Shown: positions 44,427 through 53,632 of the stretch, piece after piece
Layout: every line of letters begins with the position of its first letter
Position numbering within the stretch: the stretch's first letter is position 1
NCBI RefSeq assembly: GCF_004322855.1
Contig: NZ_CP036402.1
Location: 2,170,001 to 2,234,000 of the forward strand
Direction: 5' to 3'
Length of the DNA stretch: 64,000 bases
Source of the DNA: Egibacter rhizosphaerae
GTDB taxonomy: Bacteria > Actinomycetota > Nitriliruptoria > Euzebyales > Egibacteraceae
Notes under the pieces: generated by a model
What the model saw: only the letters and a program-made list of their open reading frames with translations
Databases searched by the model: none
What the model was told of the DNA's origin: nothing
Made by a program: the position numbers and the translations under genes

Positions 44427-45080
44427 ATGGACGAGGAGCTCGTGCACGCCACCGTGCGGGCCTACGACGCCACGGCCGACCGGTACCGTCAGCGATGGCA
44501 CGGCACCGACCCGCTCGTCGGGGCCAAGCGCGCCTTCCTCGAGCTCCTGCCGGCCGATGCGCGAGTGCTCGACGTGGGGTGCGGCACCGGCCGCGACCTC
44601 GCGTGGTTCGTCGGGGCTGGTCTCGCTGCGGTGGGCGTCGACCGGTCGACGGGGATGCTCGCGACCCCCGAGGTGCGCGGGCGTGCCGCCGCCGCGGACA
44701 TGCGTCAGATCCCGCTGCCCGACGGGAGCCTCGACGGCTGGTGGGCCGCCGCGAGCCTGTTGCACCTTGACCGCCGGGGTCTGCACGCCGCGCTCGAGGA
44801 GTTGCACCGCCTCACGCGCCCTGCGGGCGTGGGCTTCGCCTGCGTCAAGCGCGGCGACGGCGAGGCGTGGGAGCCGACCAGCGACAGCGAGCTGCGATAC
44901 TTCCGCTACTGGCAGCCCACCGAGCTCGACGACGAGCTCACCGCGGCCGGGTGGCACGTCGAACGCGCCTGGATCAGCGAGGACACCCTCGGCCGGCAGC
45001 CGTGGATCTCGCGGTTCGTACGGCGACGCTGCGCGGCGGCCTTTCCTGACCCGACCCGAGAACGAGAGGCGGCGCCGTGA
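44427..45080 (+). CDS. Class I SAM-dependent methyltransferase
   Basis: A 217-aa methyltransferase. It begins with VRAYDATADRYRQRW, then RVLDVGCGTGRDLAWF (motif I, residues 46-61), VGVDRSTGML (acidic motif II) and a Trp-rich post-motif. GAGGAGGCGCC precedes the ATG. Its stop overlaps the GTG of the downstream ThDP enzyme (GTGA), so they are translationally coupled. The substrate is unknown, and no close partner indicates a biosynthetic role. Confidence 0.9.
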   Translation: MDEELVHATVRAYDATADRYRQRWHGTDPLVGAKRAFLELLPADARVLDVGCGTGRDLAWFVGAGLAAVGVDRSTGMLATPEVRGRAAAADMRQIPLPDGSLDGWWAAASLLHLDRRGLHAALEELHRLTRPAGVGFACVKRGDGEAWEPTSDSELRYFRYWQPTELDDELTAAGWHVERAWISEDTLGRQPWISRFVRRRCAAAFPDPTREREAAP

Positions 45081-46732
45081 GCGACACCCCGACCGAGCCG
45101 GGCCCCGTGGAGACCTTCGTGCACGCCCTGCGGGAGGCCGGGAGCGAGGCGGTGTTCTCGGTCCCCGGTGGCGGGGTGAACCTCGCGATCGGCGAGGCCG
45201 CCGTCGAGGCTGGGATGCAGTACGTGCTCATGCACGGCGAAACCGCTGCCTGCATCGCCGCCGGGGTCAGTGGCAAGGTGCGCGGCGGGGTCGAGCTGGC
45301 CAGCGTGACGCGCGGGCCCGGCGCGGCCTCTGCGGCCAACGGCGCGGCGCAGTCGACCCTCGACCGGTTCCCGCTCGTGTTGGCGTGCGACACGGTGCAG
45401 CAGGACCAGCGGCATCGGGTACGCCACCAACTCGTGGATCAGCAGGCCCTGTTCGCGCCCGTCACGAAGGCCACCGGGGTGCTGGGCCGCCAGATGGACG
45501 GCCGCCGGTTCGCGGAGGCGTGCGACGAGCACGCACGCGGATGGCCTCCGGGAGCGGTCTACGTCGAGGTGGACGCCTCCGCCCCGGGCGCGTTGCCGAG
45601 CCCACCGGAAGAGGTGGTGGCCACGCCGCTCCCGATCGACGCCGCCCACCGGCTGGACGAGGCCCTCGACCTGGTGCGCCGCGCCCGACGCCCGGTGTGG
45701 CTGGTGGGCATCGGCGCGCTCGAGTGGGCCGGCGAGCTGCGGAGCCTCCTCGCGGACACGCCCTGCCCGGTGCTCACCACCTACCAGGCGAAGGGGCTCG
45801 TTCCCGACACGTGGCCGCAGACGGGACCGCCCTTCACGAACGGGCGACCGGAGCACGACCTGCTCGAGCGGGCCGACGTGATCTGCGCGATCGGCCTCGA
45901 TCCCGTCGAACCCCGCGGCGGGCCCTGGCCCTACCGGGCACCGGTCGTGACGATGAGCCCGCAGCCGCTGGACAGCGCCTACTTCGGGGCGACGGTCGAC
46001 CTCGTCGGATCGCCCGCCGAGGTGCTGCACCCGTTGGTCGACGCCGCACGCGACGCCGACTGGCACGGCGCCGAGGGGGAGGACGCGCGCGAAGGCTTGC
46101 GCCGAGCGGTGCGCGAGGCCACGGGCGCGCATGCCGCCGGCAACGGCGGTCGCGGGTCCGGGGCCGCTCCGGCCGGGGCGGGACTCGCGCCGCAACGCGT
46201 CGTCGACGTGGTCGCGGCCGCCACCGGGCCGCGGTCTCGGATCACCGTCGACGCGGGCGCGCACATGCTCGCGGTGATGCCGCTGGTCGAGGCGCACGAG
46301 CCGCTCGACGTCCTGATCTCCAACGGGCTGTCCACGATGGGGTTCGCGCTGCCGGCCGCCATCGGTGCGGCGCGCGCCGAGCCGGAGCGGCCCGTGGTGT
46401 GCTTCACCGGCGACGGCGGCCTCGGCATGTGCCTCGCCGAGCTCGAGACGCTCGCCCGGCTGCAGCTGAACGTGACGGTCGCCGTGCTGAACGACCGCAA
46501 GCTCTCACTGATCGACGTGAAGGCCTCGCCGCGCGCAGCCGGTCTGCGGCTCGCCGACTACAGCGAGATGGCGTTTGCGCGCGTCGCGGAGGGCTGCGGC
46601 GTGCCGGCCACCACAGTGGACCGTGAGAGCGGGCTGGTTGACGCGGTCTCGGGCGGCCCGGCGGGGCCGCGGTTACTCGATGTCCGAGTCGACCCTGCTC
46701 ATTACCGCGACATCATGGACGCCAGCCGGTAG
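45077..46732 (+). CDS. Thiamine-diphosphate-dependent enzyme (acetolactate synthase-like superfamily)
   Basis: A 551-aa ThDP enzyme. The N-terminal PYR domain has VFSVPGGGVNLAIGEAAV and the catalytic glutamate in LMHGETAACIAAG. The central domain (about 190-320) has RPVWLVGIGAL, and the C-terminal PP domain has FTGDGGLGMCLAELETL then LNVTVAVLND, the GDG-N metal-ThDP signature. Family members include acetolactate synthase, 2-oxoacid decarboxylases and oxalyl-CoA decarboxylase. None is clearly identified here. It is coupled to a methyltransferase and is convergent with the TRAP transporter genes, so any link to the selenoprotein locus is speculative. Confidence 0.88.
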   Translation: MSDTPTEPGPVETFVHALREAGSEAVFSVPGGGVNLAIGEAAVEAGMQYVLMHGETAACIAAGVSGKVRGGVELASVTRGPGAASAANGAAQSTLDRFPLVLACDTVQQDQRHRVRHQLVDQQALFAPVTKATGVLGRQMDGRRFAEACDEHARGWPPGAVYVEVDASAPGALPSPPEEVVATPLPIDAAHRLDEALDLVRRARRPVWLVGIGALEWAGELRSLLADTPCPVLTTYQAKGLVPDTWPQTGPPFTNGRPEHDLLERADVICAIGLDPVEPRGGPWPYRAPVVTMSPQPLDSAYFGATVDLVGSPAEVLHPLVDAARDADWHGAEGEDAREGLRRAVREATGAHAAGNGGRGSGAAPAGAGLAPQRVVDVVAAATGPRSRITVDAGAHMLAVMPLVEAHEPLDVLISNGLSTMGFALPAAIGAARAEPERPVVCFTGDGGLGMCLAELETLARLQLNVTVAVLNDRKLSLIDVKASPRAAGLRLADYSEMAFARVAEGCGVPATTVDRESGLVDAVSGGPAGPRLLDVRVDPAHYRDIMDASR

Positions 46733-46867: not shown

Positions 46868-48187
46868 CTACGTCGTCATGAGCCCCGGAAGCCACGTCAC
46901 CAGTGTCGGGACCGCGATCAGCAGGCCAATGACCACGAGGTCGGAGCCGATGAACGGGAGCGCCGACAGGTACACCGTGCCCATCCGCGTCTCCGGCGGC
47001 GCGACGCCCTTCATGACGAACAGGTTCAGGCCGAACGGGGGCGTGGTCCCGGCGATCTGGAGGTTGATCAGCATCAGGATCCCGAACCAGATCGGGTTCC
47101 ACGCCTGCGCCTCGACGATCGGCATGAACAGCGGGATCGTCACCAGCATGATCGACACCTGGTCGAGGAAGGCGCCCAGGAAGAGCACCGCGAGCATCAT
47201 CAGCAACAGCATCAGCAGCGGCGCCAGCTCTGCGTCGGTCATAGCGCCGATGAGCCCGCGCGTGGCCCCGCTGAAACTGAGCAGCTGACTGTAGAGCACC
47301 GAGCCGGCCACGATGAAGAAGATCATCGTGTTCGTCTGGATCGTGCCCACCATCGCCGCGCGGAGGGTCGTGCGGTTCAGCCTGCCGGCGAGCACCACCA
47401 CCCCGAACGCCGCGAGCGCACCGACGGCCGCGGACTCGGTGGGCGTTGCGATGCCGAAGAAGATGAGCCCGAGCACCAGCAGGATCACGAGCGCGAGCGG
47501 CGCGACGTGGCGCAAGAGCCCACGCGCGGTCTCCCGGCGGGACGCGCGGGCGACCTCCTCGTCGCGAGGCGCCCCGCGCAGCGCCACGCTCCAGTAGGCG
47601 ATCACCACCAGGTAGCCGACCGCCATGAGCAGGCCCGGCACGATCCCCGCGATCAACAGCGGACCCACCGAGACCTGCGCGATCGCGCCCCACAGCACGG
47701 CGAGCGCGCTCGGGGGGATGATCATCGCCAGTCCCCCGGAGGCGAGGATCGATCCCATCGACAGCCGCTCGGAGTAGCCGAACCGGTTCATCTCCGGCAG
47801 CAGGCTCGAGCCGAACAACGCCGTGTTGGCGAGCGTGGAGCCGGACAGGAGCCCGAAGAGCGCACCGCCCCCGGTCGCCAGGACCGGCAGCCTGCCCGGC
47901 ACGCGGCCGAGCACCCGGTTCAGGACCTGGAGCGCGTCGTGGGCGACGCCTGCCCGGAACAGGACCTCGCCCATCAGGATGAACAGCGGCACGGGCGTGA
48001 GCACGAAGCTGTCGATGCTCTGCACCGCGCTCAACGCGACCTGCTGCAGGCCCGAATCCCAACCCCCGAACATGATGACGGAGGCGACGGTCCCCACCCC
48101 GAGCATCGCGAAGGCGATCGGCACCCGCACGAGCAACAGCAGAACCAGCGCGCCGAGGAACAGCAGGAGGAACGCCCACCACTCCAC
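46868..48187 (-). CDS. TRAP transporter large permease, DctM-like
   Basis: The 439-aa DctM/SiaM-type channel subunit of a tripartite ATP-independent periplasmic transporter, with about 12 helices. Typical segments are LVRVPIAFAMLGVG, FVLTPVPLFILMGEVLFRAG, LPVLATGGGALFGLLSGSTLANTALFG, RLSMGSILASGGLAMIIPPSALAV and the C-terminal INLQIAGTTPPFGLNLFVMKG. GTG at 48187 has GGAGGGG upstream. It is the last gene of a DctPQM operon transcribed away from the selenoprotein operon. TRAP systems take up carboxylates with Na+ symport. Confidence 0.95.
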   Translation of the reverse strand: MEWWAFLLLFLGALVLLLLVRVPIAFAMLGVGTVASVIMFGGWDSGLQQVALSAVQSIDSFVLTPVPLFILMGEVLFRAGVAHDALQVLNRVLGRVPGRLPVLATGGGALFGLLSGSTLANTALFGSSLLPEMNRFGYSERLSMGSILASGGLAMIIPPSALAVLWGAIAQVSVGPLLIAGIVPGLLMAVGYLVVIAYWSVALRGAPRDEEVARASRRETARGLLRHVAPLALVILLVLGLIFFGIATPTESAAVGALAAFGVVVLAGRLNRTTLRAAMVGTIQTNTMIFFIVAGSVLYSQLLSFSGATRGLIGAMTDAELAPLLMLLLMMLAVLFLGAFLDQVSIMLVTIPLFMPIVEAQAWNPIWFGILMLINLQIAGTTPPFGLNLFVMKGVAPPETRMGTVYLSALPFIGSDLVVIGLLIAVPTLVTWLPGLMTT

Positions 48188-48226
48188 TACGGCCCCCCTC
48201 CACTGGTGCGCGGATGGCGAGGGGGC

Positions 48227-48757
48227 TCAGCCACGGGTCACCCGCCCGGTCCGCACGCGCTGCACGAGCGTGCGCAGGAGCTGGAGGAGCAACAGACCGG
48301 TCCCGAGCGGGATGATCGCGGTGATCGGCCAGCGGTCGAGCCGCAGATAGCCCCCGGTGGTGGTCCCTTGGTCGAGGTCGTTGAGAACCAGGGCCGCGGA
48401 AGCGTAGAACAGCGCGGCGGTCACGAGGATCTGGATGGTGAGCGCGAGGACGTCGAGTCCACGGATGGCCCGCGGAGACAGGACCATGTCGAGCAGCTCG
48501 AGCCGCACGTGGGCGTCCTGACGCGCCACGTAGGCCGTCGCGAGGAACGTCATGAACAACAGCGCCGTGCCGCTCAACTCCAGCACCCACGGCAAGGGGC
48601 TGGCGAACACGGCCCGGCCGACGATCCCCGCCACCACACTCAGCATCACGAGCAGCAGGAGGACCCCGGCCAGGGCTTGGCCGGTCCAGACCGCCCCATC
48701 GAGCAGATCCGGCCGACCGGAGGACCTGGTTGACCGCCCCGACGGCTCGGCGTTCAT
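48227..48757 (-). CDS. TRAP transporter small permease, DctQ-like
   Basis: A 176-aa four-helix membrane protein. Helices are seen at ALAGVLLLLVMLSVVAGIVG, WVLELSGTALLFMTFLATAYV, LDVLALTIQILVTAALFYASAAL and ITAIIPLGTGLLLLQLLRTLV. The FMTFLATAYVARQDAHVRLELL segment is the usual DctQ signature. It starts 9 nt after the stop of the binding protein gene and 39 bp before the DctM gene, which fits one operon. Confidence 0.93.
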   Translation of the reverse strand: MNAEPSGRSTRSSGRPDLLDGAVWTGQALAGVLLLLVMLSVVAGIVGRAVFASPLPWVLELSGTALLFMTFLATAYVARQDAHVRLELLDMVLSPRAIRGLDVLALTIQILVTAALFYASAALVLNDLDQGTTTGGYLRLDRWPITAIIPLGTGLLLLQLLRTLVQRVRTGRVTRG

Positions 48758-48766
48758 GCCAGCCCG

Positions 48767-49903
48767 CTACTCCCCGTCGCGCGTGACGGTGGCCCCACCG
48801 GGGACCGCATCCTCGAAGTCGTCACCGTAGCCCTCCTCGAAGATGTCCCGGATCTCCTCCGCCTGCGGTGTCTGCTCGACGATGCCGTCCCAGTCGATCG
48901 CGTCCCAGCCCGGGTCGCCGTACGCGAGCTCCAGGACCTCGGCGGCCTCGTCGTCGGTGAACTCGATGAGCTCGACGCCGCCCTCCTCGCGCCAGGTCTC
49001 GACCTCCTCGAGCGCGATGTCCTCGTAGATGTCGACGATCTCCGGCTCCACCTCGGCGGTGATCTCCATCAGCGTGTCCTGGGTCTCGCTGTCGAGCTCG
49101 TCCCAGGTGTCGGCGTTCACGACGATGCTCTGCGCGGAGTCGTAGAAGCGGGGCGCGAGCTCGTACTCGACCTGCTCGTACCAGCCGAAGCCACGGGGGC
49201 CGACACCGGCCCAGCCGAAGCCGTCGACCGTCCCTCGCTCGAGTGCGGTGTAGATCTCCTCAGCGGGGATGTCGGCACTGGCGCCGCCGAGCCCGGTTAC
49301 CACGGGTTCTGTCGCGGGTGAGGTTCGAACGGTCAGCCCTTCCAGGTTGGGCGTCTCGATCTGCTCGTCGGTCAGGAAGAGCACCTGCCCGACCCCGGCC
49401 ATGCTGCGGCCCAGGTACTGGACGTCGAGCGCCTCCCGGTGGATCTCCTCGTAGAGCTCGAAGACGCCGTTCTCTCGCTCCTCGGCGGGCGTGTACGGCG
49501 TGTACCGCATCATGTCGGCGAACGGCGCCTGCTGGACGTAGTAGTCGCCCGGCATCGTGCCGGCCTCGAGCGCCCCGGAGCCGATCCCCTCGATCTGCTG
49601 GGTCGGGTCCATCACGTCGGGACCACCCGCGTACTCGATCTCCACCCACGGGGCCTGCTCCTCGACCTCCTCGACCCAGTGCCAGAAGCCGTCGTTCAAC
49701 TCCTCGTCCTCGGGGAACGCGGTGACGAACTCCAGGGTCACGGGGTCCGGATCGGTGTCGTCGTCGTCGGCCGCCTCGACATCCTCCTCGGGTGCCTGGT
49801 CAGCCTCGTCCTCGCCGTCGTCCTCGGCACACCCGACCACCACCAAGGCCAGGGCTCCGAGCAGGAATCCCAGCGTGACCGAACGGCTGCGGTTGCTGCG
49901 CAT
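48767..49903 (-). CDS. TRAP transporter substrate-binding lipoprotein, DctP-like
   Basis: A 378-aa extracytoplasmic solute-binding protein. ATG 49903 follows GGGGAGAGGACG and an in-frame start at 50038 lacks support. The signal is RSVTLGFLLGALALVVVGCAEDD, with a lipobox ending in Cys. An extremely acidic linker follows. The fold matches DctP: VTLEFVTAFPEDEE, then GLTVRTSPATEPVVTGLGGASADIPAEEIYTALERGTVDG, the conserved ligand Arg-containing motif and aromatic segments. It resembles binding proteins for 2-oxo or aromatic carboxylates, but ligand identity cannot be read. Confidence 0.93.
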   Translation of the reverse strand: MRSNRSRSVTLGFLLGALALVVVGCAEDDGEDEADQAPEEDVEAADDDDTDPDPVTLEFVTAFPEDEELNDGFWHWVEEVEEQAPWVEIEYAGGPDVMDPTQQIEGIGSGALEAGTMPGDYYVQQAPFADMMRYTPYTPAEERENGVFELYEEIHREALDVQYLGRSMAGVGQVLFLTDEQIETPNLEGLTVRTSPATEPVVTGLGGASADIPAEEIYTALERGTVDGFGWAGVGPRGFGWYEQVEYELAPRFYDSAQSIVVNADTWDELDSETQDTLMEITAEVEPEIVDIYEDIALEEVETWREEGGVELIEFTDDEAAEVLELAYGDPGWDAIDWDGIVEQTPQAEEIRDIFEEGYGDDFEDAVPGGATVTRDGE

Positions 49904-50044
49904 CGTCCTCTCCCCTTCTAGCGTGGGTCGTTCCGAGCTTCCTCGGGTCGTGGAGGAGCTGGGCACGTGCCGGCGCACCGTGGCCCGGGCGCCCACGAAC
50001 GACACTGCGCACTCAGCTCGGATCTGAGCTTGTATCACATGTCA

Positions 50045-50103: not shown

Positions 50104-50122
50104 GCCGCCTGGGAGGTAATCG

Positions 50123-51217
50123 ATGACCGAATCCGCCACACTGCCCGCCTCGCTCGCGGAGTGCGAGGACGGGGCCTGCGAGCTCCCGTCCACGTACGAC
50201 GACGCCGAGGCCGCGCACGAAGCGCTCGCTGACGCCGGCTGGACGGACGGCCACCCCGTCCGCCTGCCCACCGCCCGAGCGGTCCGCCGACTCCTCGACG
50301 CCCACGGCCTCGACCCCGACGACGGCATCGGTGGGATCCCGCCCGTGTGGGGCGACGCGACCTACGGACGGATCGCCGCGAACGCCGTCATGGCCGGGTG
50401 CCCGGCCGAGACCTTCCCCGCGGTGGTGGCCGCGCTCCGCGCGATGAAGGACGATCGGTTCAACCTCCACGGCGTTCAGTGCACGACCCACGTGGTGGCC
50501 CCGCTGCTGCTCGTCAACGGCCCTGCGCGGGACACGATGGGCGTCAACAGCGGCCACAACTGCCTGGGACAGGGAACCCGCGCGAACGCCGCGATCGGAC
50601 GTGCGGTCCGGCTCGCCATGGTCAACATCGGCGGTGCCGCACCAGGAACCCTGGACAAGGCCACGTTCGGGCATCCCGGCAAGTACGCCTACCTCTTCGG
50701 CGAGAACGAGGAGGAGAGCCCCTTTTCCCCGTTCCACACCACACGCGGCTTCGACCCCCAGGAGAGCGCCATCACCGTCTTCCCCGGGGAAGCGCCGCAC
50801 AACATCAACAACCACGCGGCCGACCCGATGGAACTGCTCGGCGCGATCGCGCACACGATGGCGTCCCTCGGCAACAACAACATGTACGTCTCCGGCGAGG
50901 TGATGGTCGTGCTCGGCGTCGACCACGCGGGCCTCGTCGCGGAAGCCGGGTTCAAGCGCCACACCGTGCAGGAGTTCCTGTTCGAGAACGCGCGCCTGCC
51001 GGTCGGGCTGCTGCGCACCGGGGGGATGTACGGCCACGACGTGGACCGCAACCTGTGGCCGCGGTGGGTCGACCGCCGCCGGGACGACGCGATGGTGCCG
51101 ATCGTGCGACGGCCCGACGACATTCACGTGGTCGTCGCCGGTGGCGTGGGGCCGCACTCGCTGTTCATCCCCGGCTGGGGGACCCGCGCCGCCACCGAAC
51201 CGATCGCCCTGTCGTAG
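50123..51217 (+). CDS. Unknown 364-aa protein encoded before the UGSC selenoprotein
   Basis: The first gene of the selenoprotein operon. GGGAGGTAATCG precedes ATG 50123. I do not recognise a named domain. Conserved-looking blocks are GWTDGHPVRLPTARAVR, MAGCPAETFPAVVAALRAM, TTHVVAPLLLVNGPAR, GVNSGHNCLGQGTRANAAIGRAVRLAMVNIGG, ATFGHPGKYAYLFGENEE, SPFSPFHTTRGF and YGHDVDRNLWPRW. Cys residues sit in MAGCP, GVQCTTH and HNCLGQG. There is no signal peptide or membrane helix, so the protein is cytosolic. The stop lies 11 bp before the selenoprotein ATG, with AGGAG in between. It is probably a catalytic or structural partner of the selenoprotein. Confidence 0.88.
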   Translation: MTESATLPASLAECEDGACELPSTYDDAEAAHEALADAGWTDGHPVRLPTARAVRRLLDAHGLDPDDGIGGIPPVWGDATYGRIAANAVMAGCPAETFPAVVAALRAMKDDRFNLHGVQCTTHVVAPLLLVNGPARDTMGVNSGHNCLGQGTRANAAIGRAVRLAMVNIGGAAPGTLDKATFGHPGKYAYLFGENEEESPFSPFHTTRGFDPQESAITVFPGEAPHNINNHAADPMELLGAIAHTMASLGNNNMYVSGEVMVVLGVDHAGLVAEAGFKRHTVQEFLFENARLPVGLLRTGGMYGHDVDRNLWPRWVDRRRDDAMVPIVRRPDDIHVVVAGGVGPHSLFIPGWGTRAATEPIALS

Positions 51218-51228
51218 AGGAGCCACCG

Positions 51229-51786
51229 ATGGACCTGAACGCCGCGATCCGCGACTTCCAGCTCGTGCCGCCGGTCGACCCGAAGGTCGTCGAGGGCACC
51301 CCGATGGCCGAGCGGTTGGCCTCGCTCGACGGCGCCCGGATCGCGCTGCTCGACAACCGCAAGGGCAACGCGAACGTCCTGCTGGACGCCCTCGGTGGGA
51401 TCCTGCGCGAGCGACACGGCGTCGCCGACACCCAGCTCACGGAGAAGCCGATCTTCTCGCGTCCGTCGCCGGCCGAGCTGCTGGCGGACCTCGAGGGCTA
51501 CGATGCCGCGCTGACCGCGATCGGCGATTGAGGCTCGTGCACGTCGTGCAGTTTGCACGACATGTCGGTCCTGGAAGGCCGGGGCGTCCCGACCGTGACC
51601 CTGTGCACCAGTCAGTTCGCGTACGAGGCCGCCCAGCAGTGGCAGGCCCTGGGGCACCGGGAGGCGACCGTGGTCGAGGTGCGCCACCCGTTCGGGCACC
51701 TGCCGACCGAGGAGGTGCGGGCCGAGGCCGAACGCGTCGTCGGCGAGGTCGTCGCGTGTCTCACCCCCACCGGGGCCACCCGATGA
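51229..51786 (+). CDS. UGSC-family selenoprotein, in-frame UGA decoded as selenocysteine
   Basis: A 185-codon protein read across TGA at 51529-51531 (residue 101). Codons 1-100 end LEGYDAALTAIGD. Continuing in the same frame gives U-GSCTSCSLHDMSVLEGRG and then VPTVTLCTSQF, AYEAAQQWQALGHREATVV and a C-terminal helix. U-G-S-C with a second Cys two residues later is the hallmark of the UGSC selenoprotein family, known from environmental and actinobacterial sequences, where Cys can replace Sec. A perfect hairpin follows the UGA (51543-51561). AGGAG precedes the ATG at 51229, and the gene ends by overlapping the CoA-transferase start (ATGA). Without Sec decoding, only a 100-residue fragment without its redox motif would be made. 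Activity is unknown. A UxxC redox centre suggests thiol-type or reductase chemistry. The Sec-tRNA and SelA, SelB and SelD genes must be elsewhere. Confidence 0.92.
51529..51561 (+). promoter_or_regulatory. Bacterial SECIS element: UGA plus hairpin
   Basis: The Sec codon UGA (51529-51531) is followed by GTCGTGCA (51543-51550), loop GTT (51551-51553) and TGCACGAC (51554-51561), an 8-bp perfect stem. The apical loop begins with G and is 20 nt downstream of the UGA, inside the range of 16-37 nt known for bacterial SECIS elements. The TGCA-G...TGCA apex resembles that of the E. coli fdhF element. The stem also codes for the conserved TSCSLHD protein segment. Confidence 0.85.
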
Positions 51787-52976
51787 GCGGGCTGCCGCTG
51801 GACGGTATCCGGGTCATCGATCTGAGCCGCAACATCGCGGGGCCGTTGTGCACCATGCTGCTCGGCGACCTCGGCGCGGACGTCGTCAAGGTGGAGCGTC
51901 CCGGAGGCGGCGACGAGGCCCGCAACCACTCGGACGATCCGGGCACCTCGCCGTACTTCGCGTCGCTGAACCGCAACAAGCGCTCGATCTGCCTCGACCT
52001 CAAGGACGGCGGCGACGCCGACAGGCTGGCGCGGCTCCTCACCCACGCCGACGTCTGCGTCGAGAACCTGCGCCCTGGCGCCCTCGCCCGCCTCGGCTTC
52101 GACGACGATCGCCTGGCACGGGACTTCCCCGAACTCATCATGTGCCATGTCAGCGGCTTCGGCCGCACCGGCCCCTGGGCCGATGCGGCGGCCTACGACC
52201 ACATCATCCAGGGCTTCAGCGGCCTGATGAGCCTCACCGGCCCGCCCGGCGAAGGCGGGTACCGCACCAACACCTCGGTGGCGGACGTGGTCACCGGGCT
52301 GTTCGCGGCGACGAGCCTCGCCGCCTCGCTGCGAGGACGCCGCCCCGAACAAGGTCCCCAGGGCGAGACGGGCGACGTCATCGACGTCTCGCTGCTCGGC
52401 AGCCTCCTCAACGCCCTCTGCTACCAGTCGGCGACCTACCTCTCGACGGGGGTGGCGCCCGAGCCCACCGGCAACGAGCATCCCTACATCGTCCCCTACG
52501 GCACGTACCCGACGAACGACGGACACGTGAGCGTCTGCGTCGGCAACAACGCCTTGTTCGCGCGCTTCTGCCGTGCGCTGGGGATCGAGGGCGCGCTCGA
52601 CGACGAACGCTTCGCGGACAATCACGCCCGCGTGCGCCATCGGGACGAGCTCAACGCCCTCGTCCGGCCCGCGCTCGCCCTGCGCACGAGCGACGAGTGG
52701 CTCGCGGCGTTCGCGGCCGAGGGGATCCCCAGCGGCCCCATCCACACGCTGCCGGAAGCGCTCGACCACCCGCAGGTCGCCGCCCTCGACCTCGTCCACG
52801 AGGTCGACAACGGCGTCGGCGGGCGCTACGCCCACCTCCGCGCCCCCTTCTCGTCTCCCCGCCTCGGCGGGATGATCCGACGGAGGCCGCCCCTCGTGGG
52901 CGAGCACACCGCGGAGGTCCTGGCCGAGGTCGGCGAGCCGACCACCCCGACGGTCGCCGACCGCGCTCGACCATGA
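51783..52976 (+). CDS. CaiB/BaiF family (class III) CoA-transferase
   Basis: A 397-aa enzyme of family III CoA-transferases, which swap CoA between a donor thioester and an organic acid. Seen are LDGIRVIDLSRNIAGPLCTMLLGDLGADVVKVE at the N-terminus, the conserved NRNKRSICLDLKD, ENLRPGALARLGFD and the catalytic Asp region AYDHIIQGFSGLMSLTG (Asp about residue 137). The C-terminal PIHTLPEALDHPQVAALDLV matches the family. Start ATG 51783 overlaps the selenoprotein stop, and its own stop overlaps the GntR start. It probably activates the imported acid, or an intermediate, as a CoA thioester. Confidence 0.93.
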   Translation: MSGLPLDGIRVIDLSRNIAGPLCTMLLGDLGADVVKVERPGGGDEARNHSDDPGTSPYFASLNRNKRSICLDLKDGGDADRLARLLTHADVCVENLRPGALARLGFDDDRLARDFPELIMCHVSGFGRTGPWADAAAYDHIIQGFSGLMSLTGPPGEGGYRTNTSVADVVTGLFAATSLAASLRGRRPEQGPQGETGDVIDVSLLGSLLNALCYQSATYLSTGVAPEPTGNEHPYIVPYGTYPTNDGHVSVCVGNNALFARFCRALGIEGALDDERFADNHARVRHRDELNALVRPALALRTSDEWLAAFAAEGIPSGPIHTLPEALDHPQVAALDLVHEVDNGVGGRYAHLRAPFSSPRLGGMIRRRPPLVGEHTAEVLAEVGEPTTPTVADRARP

Positions 52977-53632
52977 GCGGCCAGCGAGCCACCGTCCGCG
53001 GCTCGGGGGCCCGCGAGGCCTACGAGGGTCTTCGCACGGCCATCCTCGCCGGACGTCTCGCTGCGGGCTCGGCACTGGTCGAGGACTCGCTCGCCGCGCG
53101 GTTCGGGGTCAGCCGGACGCCGGTGCGCGAGGCACTGCGGCGTCTCGAGCAGGACGGCCTCGTGCAGCGCGCCCCCCACGGCGGCCTCGAGGTCCGCCGC
53201 TACTCCGCCGACGAGCTCGACGAGGTGTACGAGATCCGACAGCTGCTCGAGGGGTACGCCGCGCGCCGAGCGGCGGAGGCCCGGCGCAGCAGCGACCTCG
53301 CCCGTATCGACACCGCCCACGAGCAGATGGCCGCACTGCGCGACGAGGCGGACGGCGCCACCCGCATCGCCGCGAACGAACGGTTCCACCGCGCCATCTG
53401 GGACGCGGCGCGCAAACCCACCCTGCGGCAGAGCATCGAGCGCCTCCACCTGCACTCGGTGCACCACACCACCCTCGCCGACCCCGAGCGGTGGGCAGCG
53501 GCGCTGCGTGAGCACGCCGCCGTCCGGGACGCGATCGCCGAGCGTGATCCCGAAGCCGCAGCGGAGGCCATGAGCGGGCATCTCGCCACCGGCCGTGAGG
53601 TCGCGGTCCGCCACGCGCTCGACGAGGGCTGA
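52973..53632 (+). CDS. GntR-family regulator with FCD effector domain
   Basis: A 219-aa FadR-subfamily repressor. The winged helix at about 20-85 shows LVEDSLAARFGVSRTPVREALRRLEQDGLV, and the all-helical FCD ligand domain spans 90-210 with ERFHRAIWDAARKPTL and REHAAVRDAIAERDPEAAAEAMSGHL (metal-ligand-type His and Asp positions). The ATG overlaps the CoA-transferase stop. As the last gene of the operon whose promoter carries a TGTATACA palindrome, it is the probable local repressor, relieved by the imported acid or a metabolite, and may control the divergent TRAP operon too. Confidence 0.92.
   Translation: MSGQRATVRGSGAREAYEGLRTAILAGRLAAGSALVEDSLAARFGVSRTPVREALRRLEQDGLVQRAPHGGLEVRRYSADELDEVYEIRQLLEGYAARRAAEARRSSDLARIDTAHEQMAALRDEADGATRIAANERFHRAIWDAARKPTLRQSIERLHLHSVHHTTLADPERWAAALREHAAVRDAIAERDPEAAAEAMSGHLATGREVAVRHALDEG

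Follow-up and report, generated by a model that had tools for sequence, protein, structure and literature searches.

In glycine reductase, protein B uses its selenocysteine (Sec) to attack the carbon adjacent to the carboxylate, with thioredoxin as the donor (PMC10298544), and relatives of this enzyme reach fluoroacetate through the reductase FarB/FarE (PMC10838667). GrdB/GrdE, PrdB/PrdA and FarB/FarE share with the locus described here, as we model it, a two-component logic, in which a Sec subunit is combined with a larger substrate subunit; unlike in those systems, the setting of the present pair includes haloarchaea and typical aerobes. The Sec protein of this pair belongs to the UGSC family, on which the literature that we found consists of surveys, and whose function is listed as uncharacterised in a 2026 review (PMC13188914).

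The passages on UGSC in a 2008 survey suppose a thioredoxin (Trx)-like fold and a redox role, and they describe a 'UGSC/Unknown_1' fusion from Global Ocean Sampling marine metagenomes (Fig. S1A), in which a conserved domain with a conserved Cys is joined to UGSC (PMC2398784). Unknown_1 is probably the protein family analysed in this study, which we call P, and this fusion is the prior glimpse of the pairing that those passages offer. They place the fused domain in a few aquatic organisms and give no mechanism, whereas we find P to be a near-universal partner of UGSC across bacteria and haloarchaea. As far as the literature that we found extends, the generality of the pairing, the covariation of its dithiol parts and the link to GrdB are new.

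The P–UGSC locus of Egibacter rhizosphaerae

We analysed a 64,000-nucleotide stretch of the E. rhizosphaerae genome (contig NZ_CP036402.1, positions 2,170,001 to 2,234,000; the window), the features of which are collected in Table 1. The initial annotation had pointed to a 364-aa open reading frame encoded 11 bp before a selenoprotein gene and without a recognisable domain. Reading the sequence directly, we confirmed a real ATG-initiated frame, a Shine-Dalgarno-like GGGAGG seven bases 5' of its start and a gap of exactly 11 bp between its stop and the ATG of the UGSC gene on the same strand. The absence of a known family was likewise borne out, as P matched none in Pfam, NCBIfam or the PDB sequences, whether it was searched as a single sequence or through profiles built from 16 and 86 sequences.

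Translated with TGA as Sec (...TAIGDUGSCTSCSLHDM...), the downstream gene falls clearly within the UGSC family by both PF24696 (E 1.6e-46, 159 bits against a cut-off of 25) and NF041046 (132 bits, cut-off 125). P, in contrast, is its constant companion from outside this family, and the PF24696 model gave no match to P itself. Judged by its gene content, the source genome is able to decode Sec, with a tRNA-Sec of 72.5 bits (gathering threshold 47) and a SelB of 295 bits (cut-off 242). The candidate bacterial SECIS hairpin, GUCGUGCA-GUU-UGCACGAC, has a predicted minimum free energy of -21.1 kcal/mol and is weak on its own, because its z-score against shuffled sequences is only -1.77; an Rfam search for a SECIS returned no match.

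Table 1. Features of the P–UGSC locus, in coordinates of the window
Feature	Position	Strand	Basis
TPP enzyme, acetolactate-synthase-like	45077–46732		below equivalog cut-offs
TRAP transporter, whole, upstream of P and divergent	46868–50038	-	PF06808, PF03480
DctM (TRAP transporter)	46868–48187	-	
Presumed DctQ (TRAP transporter)	48227–48757	-	position and look only
DctP (TRAP transporter)	48767–50038	-	
Shine-Dalgarno-like GGGAGG of P	50111–50116	+	read directly
Partner protein P, 364 aa, unnamed family	50123–51217	+	ORF, homologues, AF2 model
CEDGAC motif (C14, C19), N-terminal in P, candidate dithiol tail	50162–50179	+	
Codon of C93, sole family-wide Cys of P	50399–50401	+	conservation
UGSC selenoprotein, 185 aa, GDUGSCTSC with third Cys (UxxCxxC)	51229–51786	+	PF24696, NF041046
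TGA read as Sec (U101)	51529–51531	+	in-frame TGA, same place in nearly all homologues
Candidate bacterial SECIS hairpin	51543–51561	+	predicted folding
CaiB/BaiF family III CoA-transferase	51783–52976	+	PF02515, E 1.4e-115
GntR/FCD transcription factor, start approximate	52976–53632	+	PF07729, PF00392

The start of the CaiB gene overlaps the stop of UGSC (ATGA). The window thus combines CaiB with the TRAP transporter and, near the operon, the TPP enzyme; the Roseovarius locus has TRAP and CaiB genes as well. Across the loci, the genes that recur nearby encode TctC receptors (25 loci), CaiB (17), enoyl-CoA hydratases (16), SDRs (12), MmgE/PrpD (7) and TPP enzymes (5). Since such genes are common in these bacteria and the counts carry no background, they support 'organic-acid metabolism' in general and no particular substrate; their variety (MmgE/PrpD, enoyl-CoA hydratase, SDR, amidase) points either to a range of substrates or to a redox function of a general kind. 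ComA-like and PEP-mutase-like neighbours were considered as a clue to the substrate and set aside, as they occur in only one and three loci, respectively. TPP enzymes also adjoin the UGSC–P pair in three Chloroflexota loci (L047, L055, L106).

Pairing of P with UGSC across genomes

Of the 101 related genomes, 17 encode homologues of P, at 30–82% identity, and in genome contigs we counted at least 568 stretches with a homologue. They are also found on 24 plasmid records, including those of haloarchaea, Alpha- and Betaproteobacteria, Arthrobacter and Sporomusa, and where annotated at all they are called 'hypothetical protein'. Going by this distribution of sequences, P is a family far beyond a chance ORF.

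To quantify the pairing, we drew 396 genomes from the source phylum and counted UGSC over its curated cut-off and P at full length. Full-length P was present in 27 genomes and UGSC in 26, and all 26 UGSC genomes have P (Fisher p 7e-40). The single genome with full-length P and no UGSC is G014, and two further genomes contain short, weak P fragments. For 38 of the 44 full-length P copies, a UGSC gene on the same strand is no more than 400 bp away, and in the nearer sample of 101 genomes UGSC is present in 16 of the 17 that have P. Copy numbers of P and UGSC also track each other (3/3 in G006, 2/2 in G024, 2/2 in G029, 3/3 in G050). Many genomes hold several paralogues, G046 five to six. A UGSC domain was found in 104 of 115 fetched loci, a set that is biased to near relatives and in which some loci are repeated. 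Beyond adjacency, P and UGSC occur as single chains, in which one uninterrupted frame encodes UGSC, its Sec included, and then P (L042, L046, L049, L067, L069, L095, L102, L108, L109 and others). In the AlphaFold model of one such natural fusion (L042, Smithella, 539 aa; pLDDT 94.0, pTM 0.93), UGSC appears to be placed against P with confidence, because the pTM is that high over both parts.

From the co-occurrence across genomes, the close spacing on one strand whichever gene comes first, and the single-chain fusions, we are nearly certain that P is the obligate partner of UGSC. The partnership had been proposed in the initial annotation, together with a check on whether homologues cluster with UGSC genes; they do, and we found neither an unrelated enzyme family for P nor an absence of UGSC genes near its homologues. 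The same annotation had also read the first position of P as a clue to a catalytic or acceptor role. This argument from gene order is invalid, because P-first and UGSC-first loci both occur and the order is a clade trait.

Several loci depart from the simple pair. In G014, contig C272 encodes tandem duplicated, fused P–P proteins (L016 and L024; open frames of 664 and 782 aa) with no UGSC over the cut-off, and in Poribacteria (L093, L115) P homologues without UGSC, matched over about 278 aa, lie in identical neighbourhoods adjoining PLP enzyme and POR-type oxidoreductase genes. One locus has the order UGSC-P-P-P (L075:5358-9056), and L092, L105 and L112 likewise have two or three P genes in tandem behind UGSC; such tandem P proteins may form hetero-oligomers. 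The last P of L075 belongs to a separate, diverged clade without H268 and H345. On the conjugative plasmid p2-T1 of Acidovorax sp. T1 (L169:6365-7966), the annotation of a Sec-containing UGSC–P fusion stops at the TGA, listing no more than a hypothetical protein of 97 aa and leaving out the P part; transposases of IS1071 and ISPps1 are located upstream.

Conserved residues, dithiol parts and the relation to glycine reductase

Over 126 sequences of P, residues D42, G43, G92, G133, R160 and E194 are invariant, C93 (NAVMAGC) is kept in 124, N155 varies in at most two, and N142, D178, T122 and G340 are nearly fixed. The family-wide core thus comprises D42-G43, C93, N155, R160 and E194, with C93 in a predicted loop. 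The blocks HNCLGQGTRAN and GVQCTTH, which the initial annotation had singled out as conserved-looking for their Cys and His, are indeed present, but their conservation does not hold family-wide: among 86 homologues, C120 of GVQCTTH is Cys in five and C147 of HNCLGQG in 32, and H145 is kept in 16. By this alignment both blocks are subfamily traits, and the strict Cys is C93, which had gone unmentioned. A fusion on plasmid pSPTER of Sporomusa termitida (L034:7281-9005) combines an intact P core with a UGSC-like domain (GDMGTSSA) that has neither Sec nor the second Cys, which suggests a non-redox derivative. The persistence of the core there makes it probable that P is the part for substrate binding or catalysis and that C93 is more than the resolving Cys of Sec. 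As far as sequence conservation can tell, an invariant D/C/N/R/E core that persists where UGSC has lost Sec favours a catalytic or substrate role of P.

The AlphaFold model of P is of high confidence (pLDDT 92.2, pTM 0.91), but the structure searches gave no relative that convinces. Encapsulin, chorismate mutase and cyclic amide hydrolases were discarded as relatives, with VIA-align Z-scores of 4–5.5 that lie under the noise level stated for the tool, and an internal repeat, seen by eye as a similar strand-helix order in both halves, was unsupported by profile self-comparison.

A tree of P separates two clades, and gene order follows them. A third Cys in UGSC (UxxCxxC) is present in 27 of 34 P-first loci and in none of the 74 readable UGSC-first loci, where Trp usually takes its place; the split (p about 2e-19) is uncorrected for shared ancestry and is read as a clade trait. 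The source locus is P-first and has the third Cys. In this clade, P itself carries a dithiol in several distinct forms, namely as an N-terminal CEDGAC (the source P and G006), as a C-terminal CGPDGC, CADGVC, CVDGTC or CIDGTC (CxDGxC/CxPDGC), or within a Trx-like domain at the N-terminus that shows CPTC or a comparable motif together with PGCGS. The Trx-like domain is weak in Pfam (E 0.018–0.09), and its assignment leans also on the position of the CxxC and on its look. We found CxDGxC tails and Trx-like fusions only on P proteins paired with a third-Cys UGSC, and at least two origins of the tails are likely, because they sit at opposite ends in different subclades. Ten loci contain trxB-like genes, with the orders trxB-trxA-P-UGSC on an Arthrobacter ERGS1:01 plasmid and P-UGSC-trxB in Roseovarius THAF8; most loci of the UGSC-first clade have no local Trx partner.

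Comparing a profile of 55 UGSC sequences with one of seven GrdB from actinobacterial genomes, hhalign aligned 81 columns spanning Sec (E 1.8e-5, prob 78), in which ..TSTUGTGTRCGSTLAKELERAGIPT.. of GrdB faces ..GDUGSCTSWSVHDxxELEKRGxPT.. of UGSC. A faint TIGR01917 match in the source UGSC falls in the same place. By this modest match, the Sec half of UGSC is a distant relative of the GrdB Sec domain. Only this half aligns, as GrdB's N-terminal two thirds have no counterpart in the 185-aa UGSC, and full-length GrdB (PF07355) had no match in the source genome. No relation of P to GrdE was detectable (prob only 0.5 between profiles), and P resembles neither GrdE nor GrdB by profile, so the parallel with glycine reductase rests on the UGSC side. 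We know of no solved GrdE structure. Glycine reductase is for us a model of mechanism, that is, an analogy with one homologous part and not a case of membership.

Candidate mechanisms of the pair

On balance, we lean towards P–UGSC being a thioredoxin-coupled, Sec-dependent reductase, with P as the substrate or catalytic subunit and UGSC as the Sec nucleophile; the reductase chemistry, the residue roles, the electron path and the substrate class are what we infer. P, the larger subunit, would bind the substrate, probably a small carboxylic acid imported by the adjoining TRAP transporter, and would contribute D42, C93, N155, R160 and E194 as catalytic residues. UGSC would dock on P, and its selenolate would attack a polarised carbon-heteroatom bond or a redox-active group of the substrate. 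The oxidised selenenyl-sulfide (Sec-x-x-Cys) would be re-reduced by thioredoxin-type dithiols, in the P-first clade through a relay of the third Cys of UGSC and the dithiol on P that is fed by TrxA/TrxB. This dithiol would be the CEDGAC tail in the E. rhizosphaerae protein and, in other members of the clade, either the C-terminal CxDGxC tail or the fused Trx-like domain. The downstream CoA-transferase may activate the product or the substrate. With a named partner, a GrdB-related Sec domain and a Trx-fed relay, the orphan selenoprotein UGSC would become a testable enzyme, and the model would give one reason for the Trx-like fusions, the CxDGxC tails and the trxB neighbours.

A different role is suggested by the best and only significant Foldseek match of P, chain 7xky_A, the alpha subunit of the two-subunit class I fumarase of M. 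jannaschii (E 4.8e-4, prob 0.91). P could be a self-contained lyase, hydratase or isomerase with a fold distantly like this subunit, and UGSC could have an accessory role as its redox sensor, its protector or its repair protein, which would agree with the P core being kept where UGSC lost Sec, with the few P that exist without UGSC and with MmgE/PrpD, enoyl-CoA hydratase and CaiB neighbours that fit acid metabolism. We consider this unlikely, since near-absolute pairing and fusion exceed the needs of an accessory role and the structural likeness is low (TM-scores of only 0.28/0.34; VIA-align Z 4.5, 5.3 Å over 183 residues). Nor did hhalign find profile similarity (prob 0.3) between P and ten class I fumarases (PF05681 proteins), which were taken from the genomes of other loci because a search in near relatives gave none. 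The alpha subunit of class I fumarase has three Cys ligands of a [4Fe-4S] cluster, and P lacks this triad, C93 being its only conserved Cys. The Foldseek lead to class I fumarase found no confirmation in the profile comparison, the Z-score or the Cys ligands and was set aside.

The UxxC motif, the trxB/trxA neighbours, the Trx-like fusions and the CxDGxC tails would also suit an antioxidant system for thiols, peroxides or disulfides, with UGSC as a peroxidatic Sec protein and P as its resolving or reductase partner, in keeping with the fold and role supposed in the 2008 survey's passages on UGSC. In the fusion model, however, the UGSC part resembles Rossmann/flavodoxin/response-regulator-like folds (Z up to 10.8), and a thioredoxin fold is absent among the matches listed for it. 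The operons hold substrate importers and CoA-transferases and not stress genes, and the many paralogues per genome fit several substrates better, so we regard this system as rather improbable. That P and UGSC detoxify or assemble something, such as a metal, selenium or sulfur carrier, is in our estimate very improbable. The uncharacterised status of UGSC in reviews leaves room for it, and metal binding has been suggested for some selenoproteins (PMC13188914), but the neighbourhoods are catabolic, with acid transporters, and no metal-resistance genes are among the recurring neighbours.

The reductase reading can be carried further, to a version that is speculative and that we would not expect to hold in full. 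P–UGSC would then be a selenoenzyme class of its own, an oxygen-tolerant analogue of glycine reductase for the reductive cleavage of carbon-heteroatom bonds in organic acids, in which P would be a new fold that forms its own electrophilic cofactor at C93 (such as a pyruvoyl group arising from cleavage at G92-C93) and would, with its own dithiol tail, replace GrdE and GrdA.

Among actinobacterial GrdB themselves, seven loci (L128-L134, in G189, G160, G157, G163, G179, G011 and G150) encode a protein with an in-frame TGA and the motif UGTGTRC, in which the second Cys of UxxC is missing; a GrdE homologue with an NLQTQG motif lies nearby in five of the seven.
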